The notes beneath the pieces were generated by a model. It was not told the DNA's origin. It was given only the letters and a program-made list of their open reading frames with translations, and made no database searches. Shown here piece by piece: positions 5,590-40,322 of a DNA stretch of 45,764 bases. This DNA is from a virus. Location of the stretch: positions 1 to 45,764 of IMG/VR virus record IMGVR_UViG_3300032326_001228. One strand, given 5' to 3'. The stretch's first letter is position 1, and each line of letters opens with the position of its first letter. The position numbers and the translations under genes are program-made.

Positions 5590-5778
5590 TTATTTGAACA
5601 GTTTTTTAAATTTTTCAATGCTGTTGCTCAAAGGTGCATACACATTTTCAATAAATGTGATATGTCGGCTCAGTTTAGCATCCAAAGCATCTATCTTATG
5701 ATTGATCTGTTGCATTTCTTTGAGAAATAGTTTCTTGTTGTCTGCCATTGCTTTTTTAATGATCTCTAATTCACTCAC
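5590..5778 (-). CDS. small coiled-coil protein
   Basis: A 62-residue, all-helical protein with heptad-like spacing (LEIIKKAMADNKKLFLKEM, INHKIDALDAKL). It starts inside the last bases of the DNA ligase gene (ATGA overlap), so its translation is coupled to ligase. No catalytic motif. It may pair with the two-helix membrane protein that follows, since coiled-coil plus membrane pairs are frequent in phage operons, but that is a guess. Confidence 0.55.
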   Translation of the reverse strand: MSELEIIKKAMADNKKLFLKEMQQINHKIDALDAKLSRHITFIENVYAPLSNSIEKFKKLFK

Positions 5779-7109
5779 AGTTTTTCTCCCTTTGTGAATC
5801 CTCTAAACTTCATAAATCTTGGAAAACGCAACGAATATTCATTCACAGCATCTTGATTCTGTGTGACTGCATCTGCTCTCACTTCAATCACTTGTCCAAT
5901 TAATGCATCTTTGTCTTTCCAAAATTCGTCTCGTTCTTCATCGGTCAATCCTGAACCCACATTGGATTTGATTAATTTATTATCATCCATGCCTTCCACA
6001 ATGAATGCTCCCAGTTTGCCCACATTCTTGCCTGTGCCTTCTTCCACAGATTTCACAGTCAAGCTCACTTCAATAAATGGTTTTAATTTTAACCAAGCAT
6101 GACTTCTTTTGCATTCGTATGAAGCATCCACATCTTTGATCATGATGCCTTCATATCCACCTTCTACTGCCCTCTTATTAACCTCTGTGTAAGTCTTTTG
6201 TCCTTCTGCTGTGTCCAAGTCCACAATTTCATGAGCCAACACTGTAACGGCGTTTAAATCATTCTTGTGTTGATCATACCAAGCCTTCAGCATGATGGTT
6301 CTATCTGTTTGTTTCTTATCCCAATATCCTTCCATAAAATTAGACAATGGTAAGAAATCAAACAAATGCAACACAGCATCCAAAGCACCTGCTGATTCTT
6401 TACGATGTACCTGTTTCATTAAATCTTGAAAGTTTTCACTCATCACTTCACCATCCAATACCAATGGATAGGGAGGAGGTGATTTTTTAACCACCAGTGA
6501 TATCTGTTCTGAGATGTGTCCAAAGTTGGTAAACTCTTTGCCATTACGACTGAACATGTCCACTTTGCCATCTGGATACACAATAGTGATCACTCTCACA
6601 CCATCCAATTTAACTTCCAACATTTTCTTACCCACCAACTTCTTTTCGTGGTTGGCGCTGTCATGTGCTAATTGGCAAGTGAATACTGGCACTTCATATT
6701 TTTTAAATTTGTTCTTAGTAGCCACACTGTTCACAGTTTTTTCACTCACTCCACATCTAAGATCTTTGATTAGTATTCTTCTGTAAAAACCATTCCATTG
6801 TTCTGCTGTGGCTGAACTCATCACAAGATTAATGGCATCACGAGCCGCATGACCTGTGAGCTCTCTACGATGTAATTGTTCTGCCAATTGTTTGAATATC
6901 TTCCATTCGCATCCTTGAGCAGATATCACGGAGTCTTTTTCAGGCACTTGCTTAACACCAAATGTGTACAGTTTGTCCAAACACATACGCACACCTTCAA
7001 AGAACTCATCCAATCCTTCCTGCATGGCTGACAACAGAATGGCTTCCTTGGCCAATCTGCTGTTGTCTGCTTCCAATTTAGCAATTACTTGTTGCGGTTG
7101 AGTTCTCAT
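5775..7109 (-). CDS. ATP-dependent DNA ligase (T4 gp30 family)
   Basis: A 444-residue ATP DNA ligase that seals nicks during phage replication and repair. Domains in order: N-terminal helical DNA-binding domain (about 1-140), adenylation domain and OB-fold. Motif I is VKLDGVR with catalytic Lys167; motif III is VLDGEVM (218-224); motif IV is EGIMIKD; motif V is WLKLKP. The OB part ends near RFPRFMKFRGF. Length is a little below T4 gp30 (487) but all catalytic motifs are present. It starts 11 bases after the AAA ATPase stop without a clear ribosome site and is followed by four coupled small genes, so all share the promoter at 8160-8188. Confidence 0.95.
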   Translation of the reverse strand: MRTQPQQVIAKLEADNSRLAKEAILLSAMQEGLDEFFEGVRMCLDKLYTFGVKQVPEKDSVISAQGCEWKIFKQLAEQLHRRELTGHAARDAINLVMSSATAEQWNGFYRRILIKDLRCGVSEKTVNSVATKNKFKKYEVPVFTCQLAHDSANHEKKLVGKKMLEVKLDGVRVITIVYPDGKVDMFSRNGKEFTNFGHISEQISLVVKKSPPPYPLVLDGEVMSENFQDLMKQVHRKESAGALDAVLHLFDFLPLSNFMEGYWDKKQTDRTIMLKAWYDQHKNDLNAVTVLAHEIVDLDTAEGQKTYTEVNKRAVEGGYEGIMIKDVDASYECKRSHAWLKLKPFIEVSLTVKSVEEGTGKNVGKLGAFIVEGMDDNKLIKSNVGSGLTDEERDEFWKDKDALIGQVIEVRADAVTQNQDAVNEYSLRFPRFMKFRGFTKGEKL

Positions 7110-29923: not shown

Positions 29924-30253
29924 TTATTTGGATCGTTTTTTCAATGCCTGCTGTGCCATGCGATCCACAGCATTCTTTTTTGGTGTTTGAGGTGCAGTGC
30001 TTGGTTTGGTCACATCTGTTTTGAGTGTGATACCTTCTCGGTCAAAATTTTTGATGATGGATTTGAATTCTGCATCCGTGTCGTAGGCTTGCTTCACAGT
30101 GTCGAAACTGTATTGATCTCCTTGCACGTTTTGCATGATGCGATTCAATGCCACATAATTGATGTAGGCAGGTTGTTGCTGACTGTTGGCAGTGGCAATT
30201 AAATTTCTTAATACTTGAGTGATACGACTGTGATCAGTCTCGATGACTAAACC
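29924..30253 (-). CDS. probable -1 frameshift extension of the 30247-31440 gene
   Basis: This frame has no convincing start codon (a GTG at 30154 without ribosome site), yet it is open for 33 codons upstream of that GTG right up to a run of nine A at 30254-30262. A -1 slip there would fuse 109 more residues (GLVIETDHSRITQVLRNLIA..., ending RMAQQALKKRSK) to the protein from 31440. The sequence is helical, with FDTVKQAYDTDAEFKSIIKNFD and a basic tail. It may be a scaffold or core protein with a long and a short form. A sequencing error in the A run is the simplest alternative. Confidence 0.6.
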   Translation of the reverse strand, partial: GLVIETDHSRITQVLRNLIATANSQQQPAYINYVALNRIMQNVQGDQYSFDTVKQAYDTDAEFKSIIKNFDREGITLKTDVTKPSTAPQTPKKNAVDRMAQQALKKRSK

Positions 30254-31440
30254 TTTTTTTTTCCGATGAAAGGTTTTGACAACATTTCTGCTAATTTTGG
30301 ACTTCTTCTAATGATGGATTCTCTTTTTTTTCTGTCTGCAGGTTCTTCACCACCTGTGGCTGGTTCGCTGGCAGTGAAGTCATCTGCTGTGTCTGGTGTA
30401 ACTTCTGGTTCTACTTCTGTTTCAAGATCTTCAATGTCATCTGTTGGAGCATCCGCGCCCAAGGTTGCCGGCGCTTCTTCGCCTGTCAGGACAGCTACGC
30501 CGCCTGTGAATGATTTTCTTGCAGTTTCCAATTGGCTGTATAATGTTTCTATTGCGGGTTTCATGGTTGCAATGAATTCTTCTGCTTTTTCAGAACCCAT
30601 TTCGTTTCTGATCTCATCGCCTAGGTCAAGATTGACTTCAGTCTGCATTTTGGCTGTGTCTTCCAACCAACCAGTGATTTTGTCCACCATGCTGTTGGCA
30701 GCCATCACTATCTTGGCAGTGTCTTCTGCGCCTTCTTTGATGTCTTTTTTCTTCTTGTCTTTTTCTTTGTCTTGAATAGCTTTTTTCATAGGTTCTTTTT
30801 TGTCACCATCTTTGTCCATGTCTAAAAAATCTGGTTTAGCTTCGGCCACTGCTTCTGCTGGTTCTTTTATTTCTACTCCTGCTGCTGCCATAAATTTTGC
30901 ATGATCAAAATTAGGATTGAAATGTTGGAATATGGCTGAATGATGTTTGGCGTATTCTGCTCTTTTGGTTGGGTCTTGAATATCTTTTAATGTGTCAGCC
31001 ACATATTGAAAATGTTGACGTGTCATTGTTTCATCCACTGTGGTTTCACTTTCATTTTTTTCCACTGACTTGGCAATGTCGTGTGCTTTCTTAATGGTGG
31101 ATTTTTTAAGTGGTGGAGTATCACCTGTGCTCTTCATGGCCTGTGCCATGCCGATTGCGTAAGGACTTTGTGCCTTCTCATCTGTCTGTGATAATTCCGT
31201 AATTCTTTGTTCGATCACTTTTAAAAACAATCTATTTTTTTGATAAGCTTCACTGGAATGTATAGCATCAAAGTTGGCTTGATTTTCAATCACCTGCAAT
31301 TGATTGGCCAGTTTGTCACGAGCCGCAGTCAACTGTTCCACTGTGAATGATTCCAATTTAATTTTGGATCCAAACATCTGAGCCACCCTATCGTTAAGGT
31401 TTTCTGCTGTGGGAGTGCTTTTTAACTGTGTAAATTTCAT
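30247..31440 (-). CDS. hypothetical acidic, helical virion-region protein
   Basis: A 397-residue protein, largely helical. Parts: N-terminal helices (TAENLNDRVAQMFGSKIKLESF and on), a Lys/Asp-rich linker (FLDMDKDGDKKEPMKKAIQD), a helical middle, and a Glu/Asp/Pro-rich tail (DDIEDLETEVEPEVTPDTADD) before a basic end (KRESIIRRSPKLAEMLSKPF). The D-x-D-x-D-G stretch could bind calcium but looks like a linker found in marine T4-like virion proteins. A prohead-core or internal-head role is possible. The stop at 30247 lies directly after the slippery A run. Confidence 0.6.
   Translation of the reverse strand: MKFTQLKSTPTAENLNDRVAQMFGSKIKLESFTVEQLTAARDKLANQLQVIENQANFDAIHSSEAYQKNRLFLKVIEQRITELSQTDEKAQSPYAIGMAQAMKSTGDTPPLKKSTIKKAHDIAKSVEKNESETTVDETMTRQHFQYVADTLKDIQDPTKRAEYAKHHSAIFQHFNPNFDHAKFMAAAGVEIKEPAEAVAEAKPDFLDMDKDGDKKEPMKKAIQDKEKDKKKKDIKEGAEDTAKIVMAANSMVDKITGWLEDTAKMQTEVNLDLGDEIRNEMGSEKAEEFIATMKPAIETLYSQLETARKSFTGGVAVLTGEEAPATLGADAPTDDIEDLETEVEPEVTPDTADDFTASEPATGGEEPADRKKRESIIRRSPKLAEMLSKPFIGKKKV
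30253..30259 (-). other. -1 frameshift slippery heptamer A AAA AAG
   Basis: On the minus strand, A-AAA-AAG in the frame of the 31440 gene, followed by GTT TAG. The same heptamer drives -1 frameshifting in E. coli dnaX. A 5-bp hairpin (GACTG ATCA CAGTC) lies about 13 bases downstream. Confidence 0.6.
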
Positions 31441-32083: not shown

Positions 32084-32466
32084 CTGTTTGTCTGTTGTCC
32101 TCTGGATCTCTGCATGAGATTGTTGATCACCGGATCCAAATCTTTTTTCTTGGCAGTGAAAGCTCCTGGATTTTTGGGATCCTTGCTCTGCATTTTTACA
32201 TCAGTAGGTCCCACTGACACAATCTCCATGTCTTGTTCTTTGCCAGGTGCTGTGGGTATGGGTAACTTTTCACCAGGTTTTAATAAATTTTTATTGGTGG
32301 CAGTGTTCATTTTGTTCACTGTGCTTTTCACAGTGGGGGTGCTTTTGATGGGTCCTTTGGGTAATACATTTTGTGGTATGGGTGCACCTGTGCGTATGTT
32401 GCTGGGTCCTAATTTTTTCAAAACCTTGTTCAAATAATCGTTGGGTGCAAATTCTTTCAATCTCAT
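32080..32466 (-). CDS. hypothetical virion-region protein
   Basis: A 128-residue protein starting MRLKEFAPNDYLNKVLKKLG, with a Pro/Lys/Thr-rich low-complexity middle (PKGPIKSTPTVKSTVNKMN, PGEKLPIPTAPGKEQD) and a C-terminus QRSRGQQTNR. Intrinsically disordered by composition. It overlaps both neighbours by four bases, so it is translated in coupling. An internal head or linker role is possible; no family recognised. Confidence 0.5.
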   Translation of the reverse strand: MRLKEFAPNDYLNKVLKKLGPSNIRTGAPIPQNVLPKGPIKSTPTVKSTVNKMNTATNKNLLKPGEKLPIPTAPGKEQDMEIVSVGPTDVKMQSKDPKNPGAFTAKKKDLDPVINNLMQRSRGQQTNR

Positions 32467-32780
32467 TTTCTTATGGGCTTTCTTTTGGTTGGTCTGGATG
32501 ATTTGCGTGTTCTTGGTGCATTCAATCTTTTCACTCTGCGACTGGCTGTGGAACGTTTGGTTCTGCCAGCTTTGATGGCAATTTGTGATCCTCTGCGAGC
32601 CAAGGTTTTTCTAAAACTGATTGATTTTTGAATATTTTTAGGTTTGGTACAGGTGGCTGGATTGCCCACTATTCTGCCTTTGCGAATGCCTGCTGTGCAA
32701 CGATAGCGACGGGCCATGCGACCGCCTTTGCGACCCCAGATGGGAGTGACTGCTTCAGTGATGATTTCAGCTATCTTCAT
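32463..32780 (-). CDS. strongly basic protein, possible internal head protein
   Basis: A 105-residue protein, extremely rich in Lys and Arg after residue 15 (GRKGGRMARRYRCTAGIRKG, and a C-terminal SRRVKRLNAPRTRKSSRPTK). The N-terminus MKIAEIITEA is nearly the T4 capsid-targeting peptide MKTYQEFIAEA, with a possible cut after IITE. In T4 such proteins are packed inside the head and injected with the DNA. A basic, DNA-binding internal protein is therefore likely, though unproved. A late box lies upstream; the chain of coupled late genes starts here. Confidence 0.6.
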   Translation of the reverse strand: MKIAEIITEAVTPIWGRKGGRMARRYRCTAGIRKGRIVGNPATCTKPKNIQKSISFRKTLARRGSQIAIKAGRTKRSTASRRVKRLNAPRTRKSSRPTKRKPIRK

Positions 32781-33069: not shown

Positions 33070-33483
33070 CTATTCTGCTTTTTTAACTGTGCTGTTTTTA
33101 TAAAACACTATGTTTGTGTTCTGAGGATCTTTGGTGATAAAAATGTTATTGTTGATATTGATACTTTCTTTGAGATTGGAGATCATAGGCACCATGTTGA
33201 AATCTTCCTGCAGTTGTTCCACAGTGATATAGTCTGGTTGATCTGTGTCAAACTCCATGAACCAAACCATCTGTTGGCCTTGATATCTGCTGCCAAATGC
33301 AAATTGTTTCACATCCTTGTGCAGAGCCACTGGACGACTGTGTATGTTCACATTGCTCCTCAGCATGAGACACTGTTCAAACACATTGTAGTTGGATTGC
33401 TGATCCACAGCACAGCGATCCTCACTCTTGTGGCGATGCTGATCAGTTTTGGTGATGTCTATGAGTGAATAAACTTGGTACAT
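33070..33483 (-). CDS. hypothetical virion-region protein
   Basis: A 137-residue protein. It begins MYQVYSLIDITKTDQHRHKSED, has a beta-rich middle (ALHKDVKQFAFGSRYQGQQMVWFMEFD) and a C-terminal beta strand (NIVFYKNSTVKK). No domain recognised. GTTAAATA lies eight bases upstream of the ATG. Its position among late genes makes it a likely structural or assembly protein. Function unknown. Confidence 0.55.
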   Translation of the reverse strand: MYQVYSLIDITKTDQHRHKSEDRCAVDQQSNYNVFEQCLMLRSNVNIHSRPVALHKDVKQFAFGSRYQGQQMVWFMEFDTDQPDYITVEQLQEDFNMVPMISNLKESININNNIFITKDPQNTNIVFYKNSTVKKAE

Positions 33484-33997: not shown

Positions 33998-34399
33998 TTA
34001 GTACTTGGCAGTGGGCGTGTAGGCAGTTTGACCTTTCATATAAGTGTCCACAAAAGTGCTCACATAATTCTTGGTGTCAGTCTGACTCAAAAACTTTTTG
34101 ATGCCTGCACTGGTTTGAATGTCCTTGGTGAATTGTAATTTCGCAGCTGGTTTGATATTTTCTGCTGTGGCCAATGCTCTCAGTGCCTTTGCCTGTTGTG
34201 CTGTGATGGGGTGTTTTTCACCATCATCTGTGGTCACATGAGTGATGGGATTGGGATTGCCCCTGCTGTCCAACACTTTGCCCAACTGATTGAACATGGT
34301 GTCCTGTTTGAATTCTTTGTCCAGACCTGCATTGGGATCATCTGCTGGATCCATGATGTTGATCTTTTTAATGGGCATGAAATCTGTTGCTTTTACCAT
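33998..34399 (-). CDS. hypothetical virion-region protein
   Basis: A 133-residue protein with an acidic N-terminus (DPADDPNAGLDKEFKQD), a Thr-rich middle and a helical end (DIQTSAGIKKFLSQTDTKNYVSTFVDTYMKG). No domain recognised. ACTAAATA lies six bases before the ATG, giving a nearly leaderless late transcript. It sits just downstream of the ligase-like gene and could be in the same structural set. Confidence 0.5.
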   Translation of the reverse strand: MVKATDFMPIKKINIMDPADDPNAGLDKEFKQDTMFNQLGKVLDSRGNPNPITHVTTDDGEKHPITAQQAKALRALATAENIKPAAKLQFTKDIQTSAGIKKFLSQTDTKNYVSTFVDTYMKGQTAYTPTAKY

Positions 34400-34400
34400 A

Positions 34401-35543
34401 CTATCTATTTAGTTGAAAGTTCTGTCTGCTAAAGCCTGCACGGTTCACTAATTTGATTGGACCTTGAGCTGTCTGTATCACATAGCCCTCACCACCTGGC
34501 TGATCGTTTATGCTGGCAGTGACATCAGCACCTTGACTGTCCAGCTGACTGATCACTGCGTCTTTGGCTGCTTGTATGCCCACAAACACCTTCCATAGTG
34601 CATTGAATCCTTTGATTTCTTGTTTGATATAATCCACAATTTTGCCTTGTTTGTTGCGACTCACTGCACTGGTGGTTGTGAGCCACTTGACAAAATCTCG
34701 GCCCAAATCACTCTCACCTTTCAACACTTTACTGTTCACATAGGTGTACAGTATTTGTGCAAAGTCTGACACTTTCATAGCACTCAGCTTGTTGCGATCC
34801 AACACAGAATCAATATCTCGACTGTACTGATTTAACAACGTTTTGACCTGATCCAATTGAGTGTTGTCCACTGTAACTGGTTCACTCACAGTCACAGGCG
34901 GCATCACCAGCAAACGGCTGCCTCGGAATCCCAAATCTTCTGGCAATGGTTGAGTGACTCCTTGTTCATTGATCTTACTGTGAATCACAATGGCCACTTC
35001 ACTGCGAGCAATCTTTTTGCCCAAAGCACTGTCGGCTGTCACACTGTAGGTCACCACATTGGGTTTGAATCGGTATCTGTTATCTTTCAATTCAGGCTGT
35101 TGAAAATACAATATGTCTGCTTTGTAATAACCTTCCAAATCTTCTGGAGTGGCTGACTCCACCACTGGAAACACTGATTTCATCTTGTCAGCAAAAATTT
35201 TATAATCCTCTGCCTTGCTCACATCTTTGGCACGATTTTGTATCATGGCACCTAAATCATCTGGATTGGTAGCTCTGCCATCATAACTTTTGGCCACAAA
35301 TCCTGCTTTGTCTGTGAATATGAATTCGCCATTGGGATTTCTTCCAAAGATCACTCCCACAGCACCATCCCATTTGATTGAGACACTTTTTAAATTTTTA
35401 TTGATGTTACTGAGTGCTGCCACTGCTTCACGAGCTCCTTGACTGCCATTCCACAGCACAAAGTCTTCCAAGTGATGTATTCTTGCATCTTCCAGCAATA
35501 TATCACAACGTCCAGTGATTGTTTTGAATTCCACTAATTTCAT
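34401..35543 (-). CDS. covalent nucleotidyltransferase/ligase-like protein
   Basis: A 380-residue protein with the marks of the ligase/capping superfamily, unlike the DNA ligase at 5775-7109. Motif I is IKWDGAVG (56-63), with Lys57 as the possible AMP-binding residue; KADILYF (141-147) fits motif III; EGYVIQT (352-358) fits motif IV; and IKLVNR (363-368) fits motif V. Motifs I and IV are about 295 residues apart, wider than in most ligases, with an unassigned helical insert. Marine T4-like phages carry a DUF6267-type family with this look. It could join or cap RNA or DNA ends. Overlaps the nucleotidyltransferase-like gene upstream by four bases. Confidence 0.62.
   Translation of the reverse strand: MKLVEFKTITGRCDILLEDARIHHLEDFVLWNGSQGAREAVAALSNINKNLKSVSIKWDGAVGVIFGRNPNGEFIFTDKAGFVAKSYDGRATNPDDLGAMIQNRAKDVSKAEDYKIFADKMKSVFPVVESATPEDLEGYYKADILYFQQPELKDNRYRFKPNVVTYSVTADSALGKKIARSEVAIVIHSKINEQGVTQPLPEDLGFRGSRLLVMPPVTVSEPVTVDNTQLDQVKTLLNQYSRDIDSVLDRNKLSAMKVSDFAQILYTYVNSKVLKGESDLGRDFVKWLTTTSAVSRNKQGKIVDYIKQEIKGFNALWKVFVGIQAAKDAVISQLDSQGADVTASINDQPGGEGYVIQTAQGPIKLVNRAGFSRQNFQLNR
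34406..34413 (-). promoter_or_regulatory. late leaderless promoter
   Basis: Minus-strand ACTAAATA, 6 bases before the ATG at 34399. Confidence 0.6.
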
Positions 35544-36292
35544 CTGCCCACCACATTCATCATGTTTCTAAACCACACATTGCTGCCTTCCACTGTGTGT
35601 TCAGGCAATCGCTTTCCTGATTTGGCAAATGATTCCACAGCATCTGCCACTAATTTTTCATAATCAGATCTGCCACGAATGATTTTATGAATGCTTTCTA
35701 CACTCGCTAAATCTTCAGCTGTGTGATCCACACCCAACAACAGTTGAGCAATTCTGTCAGGATCTTTGCTCACTGGCTGATTACTCTCACGATTGAGCAA
35801 ACCATAGTTGTGACTCCAACGATATCCCAATGCTTTGGCAATGCTGGCCAACAATATATGACGATCCATGCCTTTGTATTCGCTGCCGGTCAAGCCACCT
35901 TGTAGACTGAATTTTTGCCATGTGGGTTCACCAAACATGAAATCTGTCTGCACAAAACCTTTTTTGACATCACCTGCGATGGGAGTTTTAAAATGCACTG
36001 AGATACCACTTTTGCGTACCCACTGTTTGGGATCTTGCTGTTGTGATTGTGCCCACTGTGATAATTTTAACACCAACTCGTCTTTGCTGATTTTTTTCTC
36101 ATCCACACCCAGATCCAGATCACCGCTGGTGGGAGCCTTGCCTGTGGTGCCCAACATATTATCCTGCAAGGATAATCCTGTGATGCCTTCCAACCATTTC
36201 ACTGTGGGAGCCACATCTGCTTGATTGATTCTGCCTGTGAGCAATTCTCCTTCAGCTCCTTTAAAAATGTTGCCACCTTCTTTCAGCATCAT
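35540..36292 (-). CDS. nucleotidyltransferase-fold protein (Pol beta-like)
   Basis: A 250-residue protein. GKAPTSGDLDLGV (51-63) matches the G-S/T-x(n)-D-x-D signature, with D58 and D60, and QTDFMF (115-120) gives the third carboxylate (D117) of a Pol-beta-like active site. It would transfer a nucleotide to RNA, DNA, protein or a small molecule. It is coupled to the ligase-like gene (four-base overlap) and to a small gene upstream (one-base overlap). The pair suggests one pathway of nucleic-acid end repair or modification, possibly in the virion. Target unknown. Confidence 0.62.
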   Translation of the reverse strand: MMLKEGGNIFKGAEGELLTGRINQADVAPTVKWLEGITGLSLQDNMLGTTGKAPTSGDLDLGVDEKKISKDELVLKLSQWAQSQQQDPKQWVRKSGISVHFKTPIAGDVKKGFVQTDFMFGEPTWQKFSLQGGLTGSEYKGMDRHILLASIAKALGYRWSHNYGLLNRESNQPVSKDPDRIAQLLLGVDHTAEDLASVESIHKIIRGRSDYEKLVADAVESFAKSGKRLPEHTVEGSNVWFRNMMNVVGR

Positions 36293-36546
36293 TAGTCACT
36301 CTCGCCTTCTTGGATCTTCTTCACTCCCATCTTGAATTTCTTGCTGTCGCCGTTTTTGATTGAGTTGATGAATCTTCGCTCCAACTCTTGAGCAGTTTCA
36401 GGATCATACTTCTCATTGATCATTTGAAAAAAATTGATAGCACTCTCAATGATGTTGCTGCCTTTGGCTTCCACGATGTGATCCAGGTCTTTGGATCTGT
36501 ACAAGTGGTTCAATTCCTGCAGAATAGATCTAGTCTGTTTTTTCAT
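36292..36546 (-). CDS. small helical protein leading the NTase/ligase-like operon
   Basis: An 84-residue all-helical protein (TRSILQELNHLYRSKDLDHIVEAKG, then FFQMINEKYDPETAQELERRFI). No motif. It begins the operon of the nucleotidyltransferase and the ligase-like protein; its stop shares a base with the next start. Both early and late promoters lie upstream, so the operon may be used at both stages. It could be a partner or regulator of the enzymes; no family is recognised. Confidence 0.55.
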   Translation of the reverse strand: MKKQTRSILQELNHLYRSKDLDHIVEAKGSNIIESAINFFQMINEKYDPETAQELERRFINSIKNGDSKKFKMGVKKIQEGESD

Positions 36547-37293: not shown

Positions 37294-37301
37294 TATTTAT
37301 A
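37294..37301 (-). promoter_or_regulatory. late promoter, perfect TATAAATA
   Basis: Minus-strand TATAAATA, 10 bases before the ATG at 37283. Confidence 0.6.
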
Positions 37302-38087: not shown

Positions 38088-38342
38088 TTAGTGCAGAGTT
38101 GAATCTGCTTTGGGTGGGTTCACGCTTGTGTGGCCCGTGAGGCTGTCTATTCTAGCTCGGAAGTATTCTTGCACAATGCGATATTTCAGTATCTTGGTTT
38201 GATTTTCTTCACTCAGTCCTTCATCATCCAATTCGTCTATGGCCATTTGAAGGTTATCAATCTCTTCTTGAAACAGTTCTTCCAATGTGAGTTGTTCGTA
38301 TAAATGACTGTCATCCATCAAATTATTTATGGAGTCACTCAT
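38088..38342 (-). CDS. small acidic helical protein
   Basis: An 84-residue acidic, helical protein (LYEQLTLEELFQEEIDNLQM, ELDDEGLSEENQTKILKY). It starts on the last base of the preceding oxygenase stop, so the two are translationally coupled, in the operon led by ALAS. No motif. It may help the oxygenase or ALAS; no family recognised. Confidence 0.5.
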   Translation of the reverse strand: MSDSINNLMDDSHLYEQLTLEELFQEEIDNLQMAIDELDDEGLSEENQTKILKYRIVQEYFRARIDSLTGHTSVNPPKADSTLH

Positions 38343-38995
38343 TATTGTTGAGAATTGAGTTGGTTTTTGATGTGCAGTTGAGTGACTTGATCATAGCCAA
38401 ACTTGCCAAATGCAAACAGATTGAACGCCACAGCATATCGTTCCTGATCACTGCGGCTGGGATATACTGAATGCTGCAGAGTGCTGGGAAACAGTATCAA
38501 TAGATTGTCTCGGGGTCGCACTGCCCAACCTTCTGTGTTGAATGAATTATTTTGACGAAAAGGTATGTCCACTGTGGGTGTGAATAAATTGTAGTGTGCT
38601 TTGTCTTTGGCAAACAATATGTCACCACTGAGATCATCAGTCTGTATATACAACACTCCGCTCAGTATGGAATTGGCATGCCCATGAGCACCTGATTCAT
38701 CTCCTTTGACATGTTTCACTGCCCAGCTGTTGGTCATTTGAAAATCTGCTGTGGGTGCTACCTCCAACACTTCATATATGTAATGTTTGCAGGCAGACAT
38801 AATGTTTTGTTTCAACTCTGTCAATGGAGGCATATCCAAAAGAAATTTGTTGGGAGTGCCAAAACCATTGTCCACTGGAAATCTTGTGTATTCAGTATTT
38901 TTTATAAATTCTTTTGCACCAGCGGGCACATCAATCATGGCCTCCAGCAATGGTGTGGCAAACAATGGAGTGATACGGAATTGATTGGGATTCAT
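38342..38995 (-). CDS. 2OG-Fe(II) oxygenase family protein (second copy)
   Basis: A 217-residue protein. FRITPLFATPLLEAMID opens the family; TNSWAVKHVKGDESGAHGHANSILSGVLYI holds the first iron His cluster; LLILFPSTLQHSVYPSR gives the distal His and the 2OG-contacting Arg region. Same family as 13854-14447 but clearly diverged. It shares an operon with ALAS: ATGA coupling to the 44-residue gene upstream and one-base overlap with the gene downstream. It would hydroxylate an unknown target and depends on iron. Confidence 0.78.
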   Translation of the reverse strand: MNPNQFRITPLFATPLLEAMIDVPAGAKEFIKNTEYTRFPVDNGFGTPNKFLLDMPPLTELKQNIMSACKHYIYEVLEVAPTADFQMTNSWAVKHVKGDESGAHGHANSILSGVLYIQTDDLSGDILFAKDKAHYNLFTPTVDIPFRQNNSFNTEGWAVRPRDNLLILFPSTLQHSVYPSRSDQERYAVAFNLFAFGKFGYDQVTQLHIKNQLNSQQ

Positions 38996-39126
38996 TTTTT
39001 ATTTTTTTTATTGCGAATGTTTTTGAATTTTATGTTGGAATTATAAGACACATACCAAGACCAATCGCACAAGTTGAAATTGAATTTTTTAAAAGCGTTG
39101 TTGAAATACTTTAATAGACGTTTCAT
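38992..39126 (-). CDS. 44-residue basic protein between ALAS and the oxygenase
   Basis: [19 protein letters not shown]..., ending in an Asn/Lys-rich tail (RNKKNKK). It overlaps the ALAS stop by four bases (ATGA) and the next start in the same way, so it is a coupled middle gene, too precise to be accidental. Basic and amphipathic at the start. Function unknown; may be an accessory of the ALAS/oxygenase unit. Confidence 0.6.
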
Positions 39127-40322
39127 TTGAAATATTTAGTGAACCCTGTGGTGAGTCCTTTGACCAATTGAGTGATCATGTCAGCTGTGTGATTGGGAGT
39201 GGGTGCTATTCTTAATCTTTCGGTACCTTCAGGCACAGTAGGATAATTGATGGGCTGTATGTAAGAATCATGTTCATACAGCAGATGATCGCTGATGCTT
39301 TTGCAAATTTTTGGATCTCGCACCATGACCGGTACAATATGAGTGTGATTTTCCATAATTTCAATTTTGGCATCACGCAGTGCTTGTTTGGTCTGCGCCA
39401 CTATGCGTTGATGATTTTCTCTCATCACTTGTCCTGTTTCATCTCTTAAAAATTTAATACTGGCAGTGGCACCTGCACACACCACTGGTGGCAGCGAAGT
39501 GGTAAAAATAAATCCTGAACTCACTGATCTCACAGCATCAATCAATTCCGCAGCGGCAGCAATGTATCCACCATGACAACCAAAGGCTTTGCCCAATGTG
39601 CCATTGATGATGTCTACTCTAGATTCCAATCCCAACTGTTGCACCATGCCACCACCTTGCTCACCGTACAAACCCACGGCATGCACTTCATCTATGTAAG
39701 TTATGGCGTGGTATTTGTCGGCGAGGTCGCAAATTTCAGAAATCAAACCCACGCTCCCATCCATGCTATACACGGACTCAAAAATAATGCAGGGAGTTCC
39801 TTTGACAGCCATCAGTTTGCTTTCCAGATCCTTCATATCATTATGTCGGAACACATGCTTCACAGCACCACTGTGTCTAATACCTTGAATTAGACTGGCG
39901 TGATTTTTATCATCACTTACGTATTCAACATCCGGAATGATTTTTTTCAAAGCGATCAACGTCCATTCATTTGCGACATAGGCAGACGTGTACAGTAACG
40001 CGGCTGGTTTGTTGTGCAACACAGCCAACTCTTGCTCCAATGCTATGTGATAATGTGTGGTGCCTGAAATGTTTCTAGTGCCACCTGATCCTGCGCCCAC
40101 ATGATCCAATGCCGTACGCATGGCATCCAACACAACTTTATGTTGGCCCATGCCAAGATAATCATTGGAACACCAATTGATAACTTTTTTTATGTTGTAC
40201 TTGGAATGCCATATGGAGTTGGGAAAACTGCCCCTTTCTCTCAGTATGTCATTGAACACACGATAATTGCCGGATTCTTTCAGTTGATCCGTGATACGTG
40301 TGAACTTGTCAATTGGCAGCAT
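39123..40322 (-). CDS. hemA: 5-aminolevulinate synthase (Shemin pathway)
   Basis: A 399-residue PLP enzyme that condenses glycine and succinyl-CoA to 5-aminolevulinate, the first step of heme synthesis in alphaproteobacteria. Seen: NDYLGMGQH (53-61), [15 protein letters not shown] (76-90), [11 protein letters not shown] (210-220) with Asp211 on the PLP ring, [12 protein letters not shown] (241-252) with Lys245 as Schiff-base Lys, and [19 protein letters not shown] near the end. Full length compared with host enzymes (about 405). A CATAAATA box five bases from the ATG gives a late leaderless transcript. It would feed host heme synthesis and so the phage heme oxygenase and bilin reductase. KBL/BioF are the closest alternatives but the motifs favour ALAS. 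Confidence 0.93.

Follow-up and report, generated by a model that had tools for sequence, protein, structure and literature searches.

A probable virion-associated end-processing pair, a nucleotidyltransferase and a ligase-like protein, encoded in a viral DNA fragment

Results

We examined a 45,764-base fragment of viral DNA (IMG/VR record IMGVR_UViG_3300032326_001228; the window), whose source is probably an uncultured phage related to T4, and in particular three adjoining open reading frames on its minus strand, named here SM (84 amino acids, aa; 36292..36546), NT (250 aa; 35540..36292) and LG (380 aa; 34401..35543). Our results suggest that NT, a nucleotidyltransferase (NTase), and LG, a ligase-like protein, probably act as an end-processing pair that is associated with the virion.

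The signature of NT, GTTGKAPTSGDLDL together with VQTDFMF, follows the pattern G-T-x-G-K-x3-S-G-D58-L-D60 and V-Q-x-D117, and the three predicted catalytic aspartates (D58, D60 and D117) are unchanged in 39 of 39 aligned relatives, at identities down to 26-28%. An AlphaFold model built from 37 sequences was confident, with a predicted local distance difference test (pLDDT) of 88.9 and a predicted template modelling score (pTM) of 0.76. When this model was compared with the PDB by Foldseek, 35 matches were obtained at E values up to 0.001 (best E 1.6e-4; probability ~1.00), and the first 50 were all Pol X enzymes, namely Pol mu, TdT, Pol lambda and Pol beta, aligned over ~190-200 columns at ~14% identity and a TM-score of ~0.45. 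NT has both marks of the Pol beta superfamily, SGDxD with a third Asp and the palm fold, and, as modelled, is a Pol X/Pol beta-fold nucleotidyltransferase. An earlier note on this DNA, which had called the protein Pol beta-like from its D-x-D and third Asp, was correct on this point. The N-terminal 8-kDa/HhH domain of family X is absent; ahead of the active-site strand there are only ~46 residues, which include one long helix. NT received no Pfam assignment, and a direct search of its sequence against solved structures had the same null outcome as that of LG (see Discussion). AbiEii was weakly matched by three NT members. One known candidate was rejected: RlaP, the RNA ligase-associated Pol beta NTase that Aravind and colleagues described with phage RNA ligases and predicted to replace lost nucleotides ahead of ligation in large phages (PMC7824862). 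Its model, PF10127, was unmatched by any of the 37 NT members; a genome search for RlaP found a separate copy elsewhere in Atu_ph07 and in Lak-B5 and none in this record.

LG belongs to DUF6267 (PF19782), which it matches over nearly the full model (E 3.3e-39; 135.8 bits against a gathering cut-off of 27), and is read as an RNA-ligase-like covalent nucleotidyltransferase. The four ligase motifs that had been proposed for it were all located: KWDG at residues 57-60 (motif I), ADILYF at 142-147 (motif III, where the ILYF falls within the GDLLY of relatives), EGYV at 352-355 (motif IV) and IKLV at 363-366 (motif V). K57, D59, G60, E352, G353, K364 and R368 are invariant in 58 of 58 DUF6267 proteins, with identities down to ~23%, and the same holds for H24-x-E26-D27 near the N-terminus; in 57 of the 58, D143 (motif III) is kept, and so, also in 57, is H188 of motif IIIa (G-x-V-x-H). 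Judged from these alignments, motif conservation in both LG and NT exceeds chance. The earlier note had staked its reading on the prediction of a nucleotidyltransferase fold and on the persistence of the Lys and Asp residues in relatives; NT is modelled with a Pol X-type fold, and neither its catalytic Asp residues nor the Lys/Asp residues of DUF6267 ever vary.

The AlphaFold model of LG was also confident (pLDDT 89.3; pTM 0.84). The wide spacing of motifs I and IV, previously remarked on as unusual, is real (295 residues from K57 to E352 versus 169 in the T4 Rnl2 alignment) and is due to a helical insertion of ~residues 227-335 (34539..34865, minus strand), modelled with high-confidence helices between motifs IIIa and IV and containing the invariant N270 and K327. 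The chain stops ~15 residues past motif V and therefore has no C-terminal OB domain of the kind present in DNA ligases and capping enzymes. We ruled out LG as the replicative DNA ligase because the phage has a canonical ATP DNA ligase with an OB domain, distinct from LG, elsewhere in the window (5775-7109, minus strand). When LG was compared with a viral structure library by Foldseek, the first named match beyond DUF6267 was the "RNA ligase" of Agrobacterium phage Atu_ph07 (324 aa; probability 0.89), and the next were giant-virus RNA ligases with weak E values.

This Atu_ph07 "RNA ligase" has the same length as a protein that provides a bridge to the RNA ligases. In Atu_ph07 and in the Sinorhizobium phage Phosso, the NT homologue adjoins not DUF6267 but a different protein, termed KLDG. 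Searching with the KLDG family and its PA5oct member yielded 12 further contigs. The NT homologue lies directly downstream of the KLDG gene, and an SM homologue upstream, in 11 of the 12 fetched KLDG viral contigs; the KLDG gene is also directly upstream of NT in Atu_ph07 and Phosso and two genes upstream in PA5oct. When the 12-member KLDG alignment was compared with DUF6267 by hhalign, the P value was 2.8e-10, the probability 96.8 and the score 82.8, whereas 13 unrelated profiles scored no more than 21.4 and 60 column shuffles no more than 27.2; the comparison was unconvincing with three KLDG sequences and strong with twelve. The alignment is in register over motif I, with a reported span of 30-111, and its unrealigned path crosses motifs III, IV and V. 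Five of the 12 KLDG proteins weakly matched the Pfam RNA_ligase model (best E 0.002) and five weakly matched DUF6267 (best E 0.0024); a profile comparison of KLDG with T4 Rnl2 was not significant. On these sequence comparisons, DUF6267 is homologous to the KLDG family. The ligase-like identity claimed for LG is upheld by this bridge and by the RNA ligase matches of its model, although none of its direct matches to solved ligases is significant, and its placement among RNA-ligase-like enzymes is good by motif and bridge but not proven by direct structural match.

NT and LG are closely linked. Of 63 loci, 60 have the two genes overlapping or immediately adjacent, and the remaining three have them 392-598 bases apart; they are fused in eight loci, in both orders: NT-LG in L023, L068, L085, L093 and L096, and LG-NT in L059, L060 and L061. 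One NT family has, then, two distinct ligase-like partners, DUF6267 and KLDG. DUF6267 itself was found in 82 annotated phage records and in at least 584 viral-contig stretches. In a search that had no positive control of its own, NT was undetected in RaK2, phAPEC6, CBB, T4, Vibrio 2.275.O, DLP_6 and XG4. Pelagiphage-like contigs without NT have DUF6267 near a cytidylyltransferase protein that carries another Pol beta domain (PF18765 in L112, E 2.9e-4). Proteins of 821-836 aa are encoded at L112 6028-8538 and L119 10359-12824; that of L112 unites an N-terminal Pol beta domain (PF18765/PF01909) with a cytidylyltransferase domain and lies close to DUF6267. As a separate observation, LG and the C-terminal NT domain of the LG-NT fusion reading frames (979-990 aa) have between them a further stretch with weaker similarity to NT (residues ~423-558; best E 7e-5), which, to go by its sequence, is possibly a degenerate duplicate.

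The N-termini of both proteins suggest that they are packaged in the head. The T4 protease gp21 cleaves head proteins after L/I-X-E, removing capsid-targeting propeptides of 10-19 residues (PMC9026906). LG begins with a putative propeptide of this kind (residues 1-18, MKLVEFKTITGRCDILLE; 35490..35543, minus strand), which ends in LLE18; residues 1-19 are the sole segment of its model below a pLDDT of 50. Examples of such N-termini, with a slash at the proposed cleavage point, are MRFVEFKNILKKPLVE/AARIQHAED and MITFQTFIAE/AASEEKLTHLEHAED, compared with MKLVEFKTITGRCDILLE/DARIHHLED in this window. An [LIV]xE tripeptide was present no more than nine residues ahead of the HxED core in 39 of 39 distinct N-termini of NT-linked DUF6267 proteins, against a background of 7% in random internal 12-mers; it was also present in 17 of 26 DUF6267 N-termini without NT. 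Neither count is phylogenetically independent. NT of DUF6267 phages follows the pattern M-x-L-x-E/GGN-h-F (here MMLKE/GGNIF, with LKE5), and its homologues in Atu_ph07, Phosso, PA5oct and the KLDG contigs start directly with MGG or MSG, as would be expected if the extra residues were an added tag. LxE N-termini occurred in none of the DnaB-like and exonuclease families of the NT/LG loci and were present in two further neighbour families.

Detection of relatives in virions points the same way. The PA5oct homologue of NT, EST35_0231 (hidden Markov model, HMM, E 2.3e-28), is annotated in a database note as "structural protein, ESI-MS/MS". Two neighbours in the window, a 137-aa protein (33070..33483, minus strand) and a 397-aa protein (30247..31440, minus strand), have the virion-detected PA5oct homologues EST35_0234 (HMM E 4.9e-11) and EST35_0237 (HMM E 8.4e-39), respectively. 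In Atu_ph07, 29 virion proteins were reported from a cluster of CDS 31-76 (PMC6102473); NT is ~CDS 65 by count of the annotated list and lies within this cluster, which is suggestive only. We infer from these findings that NT and LG are probably packaged in the head of this phage. The earlier proposal that the pair is "perhaps carried in the head" thus gains support from the conserved propeptide-like N-termini and from the mass spectrometry annotation of a remote NT relative.

SM, a helical protein that matches PHROG 11854, "virion structural protein", heads the three-gene unit, and its homologues precede the NT/ligase pair in loci that range from marine contigs to Atu_ph07, Phosso and PA5oct (EST35_0225). 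All three reading frames were confirmed at their stated positions and overlap, SM and NT by 1 bp and NT and LG by 4 bp, the latter an ATGA shared by the NT stop and LG start (35540..35543, minus strand), which we read as translational coupling. Both early and late promoters had been proposed for the unit. The early one is plausible: a sigma-70-like TTGACA-17-TACAAT site with a TG extended -10 precedes SM (36629-36601, minus strand), an equal score occurs in 1.2% of the window's 120-bp tiles, and sites of the TTGACA-17-TATACT/TATTAT type stand at the equivalent place in divergent loci, L044, L047, L063, L072 and L104 among them. The late one was not confirmed as a T4-type promoter; the nearest TATAAATA (37294-37301) lies ~750 bp upstream, in front of another gene, and sites of this type are no commoner than expected by chance.

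Discussion

Our reading of SM-NT-LG is of an early-transcribed, translationally coupled unit whose enzyme pair works on broken polynucleotide ends and is probably carried in the head, and we give this full combination an even chance of being right. NT and LG would be made with short N-terminal propeptides that direct them into the prohead core; a protease of the gp21 type would trim these after L/I-x-E, and the mature proteins would then pass into the host with the phage DNA. There, the Pol X-like NT may restore the nucleotide or nucleotides missing from a broken 3' end, and LG, adenylylated at Lys57, may activate the 5' phosphate and seal the break. The likeliest substrate would be RNA, for example tRNAs cleaved by host anticodon nucleases as infection begins, since the affinities of LG are with RNA ligases and it has no OB domain of DNA ligases; by itself, the choice of RNA falls a little short of an even bet. 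For this phage, we infer the activity and substrate of the pair, as well as cleavage and ejection. A wider and more tentative possibility is that large T4-related phages inject a capsid-borne kit of two enzymes, for template-independent nucleotide addition and ligation, that is active before phage gene expression, and that DUF6267 is a previously unrecognized family of RNA ligases.

The same proteins may instead process DNA ends, as a virion-delivered filling and joining system resembling non-homologous end joining that protects, repairs or circularizes the incoming phage DNA. The nearest solved structures to NT are the DNA polymerases mu, TdT, lambda and beta, and its closeness to Pol mu and TdT keeps a role at DNA ends in contention; DNA ligases III and I are among the fold matches of LG, and the unit is placed among replication and recombination genes. 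We regard this role as unlikely, however, as the phage has its own canonical OB-containing ligase, LG lacks that domain and has homologues that group with RNA ligases, NT is too short for an 8-kDa/HhH DNA-binding domain, and no Ku-like partner was seen.

It is also conceivable, at a similarly low probability, that NT and LG are ordinary early intracellular enzymes of RNA or DNA repair, like T4 Rnl/Pnkp, and that the LxE N-termini and the mass spectrometry match are incidental. The unit has a conserved sigma-70 promoter of early type, cyanophage DUF6267 proteins have no propeptide and are located among early genes, and virion mass spectrometry lists can include contaminants. An incidental origin accords poorly with the 39 of 39 LxE N-termini against a 7% background and with their absence from the DnaB and exonuclease families that share these loci; moreover, several neighbour families have LxE N-termini or were detected by mass spectrometry in PA5oct, and injection of T4 internal proteins along with DNA is established (PMC3012670). 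Rather improbable, in our view, is a function in modifying small molecules or proteins, with NT as a nucleotidylylating enzyme and LG as an adenylyl or guanylyl transferase with no role in sealing ends. Pol beta-fold NTases do include protein modifiers and toxins, as the weak AbiEii matches of three NT members recall, DUF6267 is also found fused to or beside cytidylyltransferase-like domains, and motif V of LG departs from that of ligases; but the coupling and fusion of an NTase with a ligase-like protein, re-created with a separate ligase-like family, suits end repair better.

Several observations weigh against a head-carried pair of nucleotide-adding and sealing enzymes. With regard to LG, motif V has a single Lys (K364-L-V366, then the invariant R368) and not the usual K-x-K, and for this reason we call the protein ligase-like and do not file it as a proven ligase; motif III of DUF6267 has Asp instead of Glu. 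No ligase was matched significantly by the LG sequence among solved structures, its profile comparison with the T4 Rnl2 family was not significant, and the top ranks of the Foldseek comparison with the PDB, which were ligases headed by DNA ligase III and a fungal tRNA ligase, all had E values of at least 0.1. With regard to the pairing, many cyanophage and pelagiphage DUF6267 loci have no NT; LG must therefore be able to act alone, with NT as a frequent but optional partner. No tRNA and no end-healing polynucleotide kinase or phosphatase genes were identified in the window. With regard to packaging, the residue after LLE in this LG is Asp and not Ala, Gly or Ser, and the search for a gp21 protease gave a single match, below threshold, in the L094 record of 170 kb, the other records being fragments. 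The KLDG and SM homologues of PA5oct have no mass spectrometry annotation, so that NT is the only member of the pair to have one, and since the NT proteins of PA5oct and Atu_ph07 have no propeptide and begin with the core itself, the mass spectrometry evidence is no test of the propeptide idea.

The closest known arrangement is that of RlaP, in which large phages likewise combine a Pol beta-superfamily NTase with an RNA ligase. However, NT is unmatched by the RlaP model, DUF6267 falls outside Rnl1 and Rnl2 by Pfam, and the description of RlaP/ligase pairs does not have them carried in virions (PMC7824862). LG shares with T4 Rnl1 and Rnl2 the KxDG nucleophile, the motif order I-III-IV-V and the lack of an OB domain; it differs in the helices inserted between motifs IIIa and IV, in its one-Lys motif V and in the absence of a C-terminal domain past motif V, and DUF6267 has no Rnl2 profile match. 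NT resembles family X polymerases in its palm with SGDxD and third Asp but, at only 250 aa, is without their N-terminal 8-kDa/HhH or BRCT domain. As in T4 IPI-III and Alt, a short N-terminal propeptide ending in L/I-x-E, packaging in the head and injection are proposed for NT and LG, whereas the known roles of T4 internal proteins are as inhibitors or ADP-ribosyltransferases, and no nucleic-acid end-repair pair is described in the reviews consulted (PMC9026906, PMC3012670). The partnership of Pol beta NTases with RNA ligases in large phages is already a known idea from RlaP (PMC7824862), and what is new is the combination of a non-RlaP NTase with DUF6267, neither of which has such a description in the sources searched, together with their probable packaging in the capsid. 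A search of open-access papers found no mention of DUF6267.

DUF6267 is a large family, with no assigned function, of T4-related phages, marine ones among them, and an RNA-ligase-like assignment with a Pol X-type partner makes its function testable. If the pair is indeed carried in the head, phages could mend damage inflicted by the host, cleavage of tRNAs for instance, as soon as infection begins, and injected head proteins, known as inhibitors and for ADP-ribosylation, would gain a role in nucleic-acid repair.

The genes around the unit include those of replication and recombination, with a DnaB-like helicase, an exonuclease and ribonucleotide reductase. Directly downstream of LG lies an accessory gene (33998..34399, minus strand; 133 aa), which in L051 and L057 forms a fusion with the C-terminus of LG. 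Further downstream is a very basic protein of 105 aa (32463..32780, minus strand; net charge +32), with the N-terminus MKIAEIITE/A and a propeptide-like LxE in 57% of the distinct N-termini of its family; going by its sequence, it is a candidate DNA-binding internal head protein, and many contigs have further members of the family, at times as tandem copies, downstream of the NT/LG unit. Upstream of the unit are metabolic genes for a 2OG-Fe(II) oxygenase and a class I/II aminotransferase (38342-40322, minus strand). Another family (cluster 3; ~240-315 aa), present like SM at most loci and often starting with LxE, follows the ligase/NT unit in DUF6267 and KLDG phages, including Atu_ph07 and Phosso; it has no gene in this window, and the one member scanned had no Pfam match. 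Finally, directly after NT in Atu_ph07 (45.7-50.6 kb; L039 7588-12423) there are consecutive paralogues of ~250 aa (cluster 375), with starts such as MKWHQLTEA and MRWHQLIENE, and this row looks ADP-ribosyltransferase-like to the eye.

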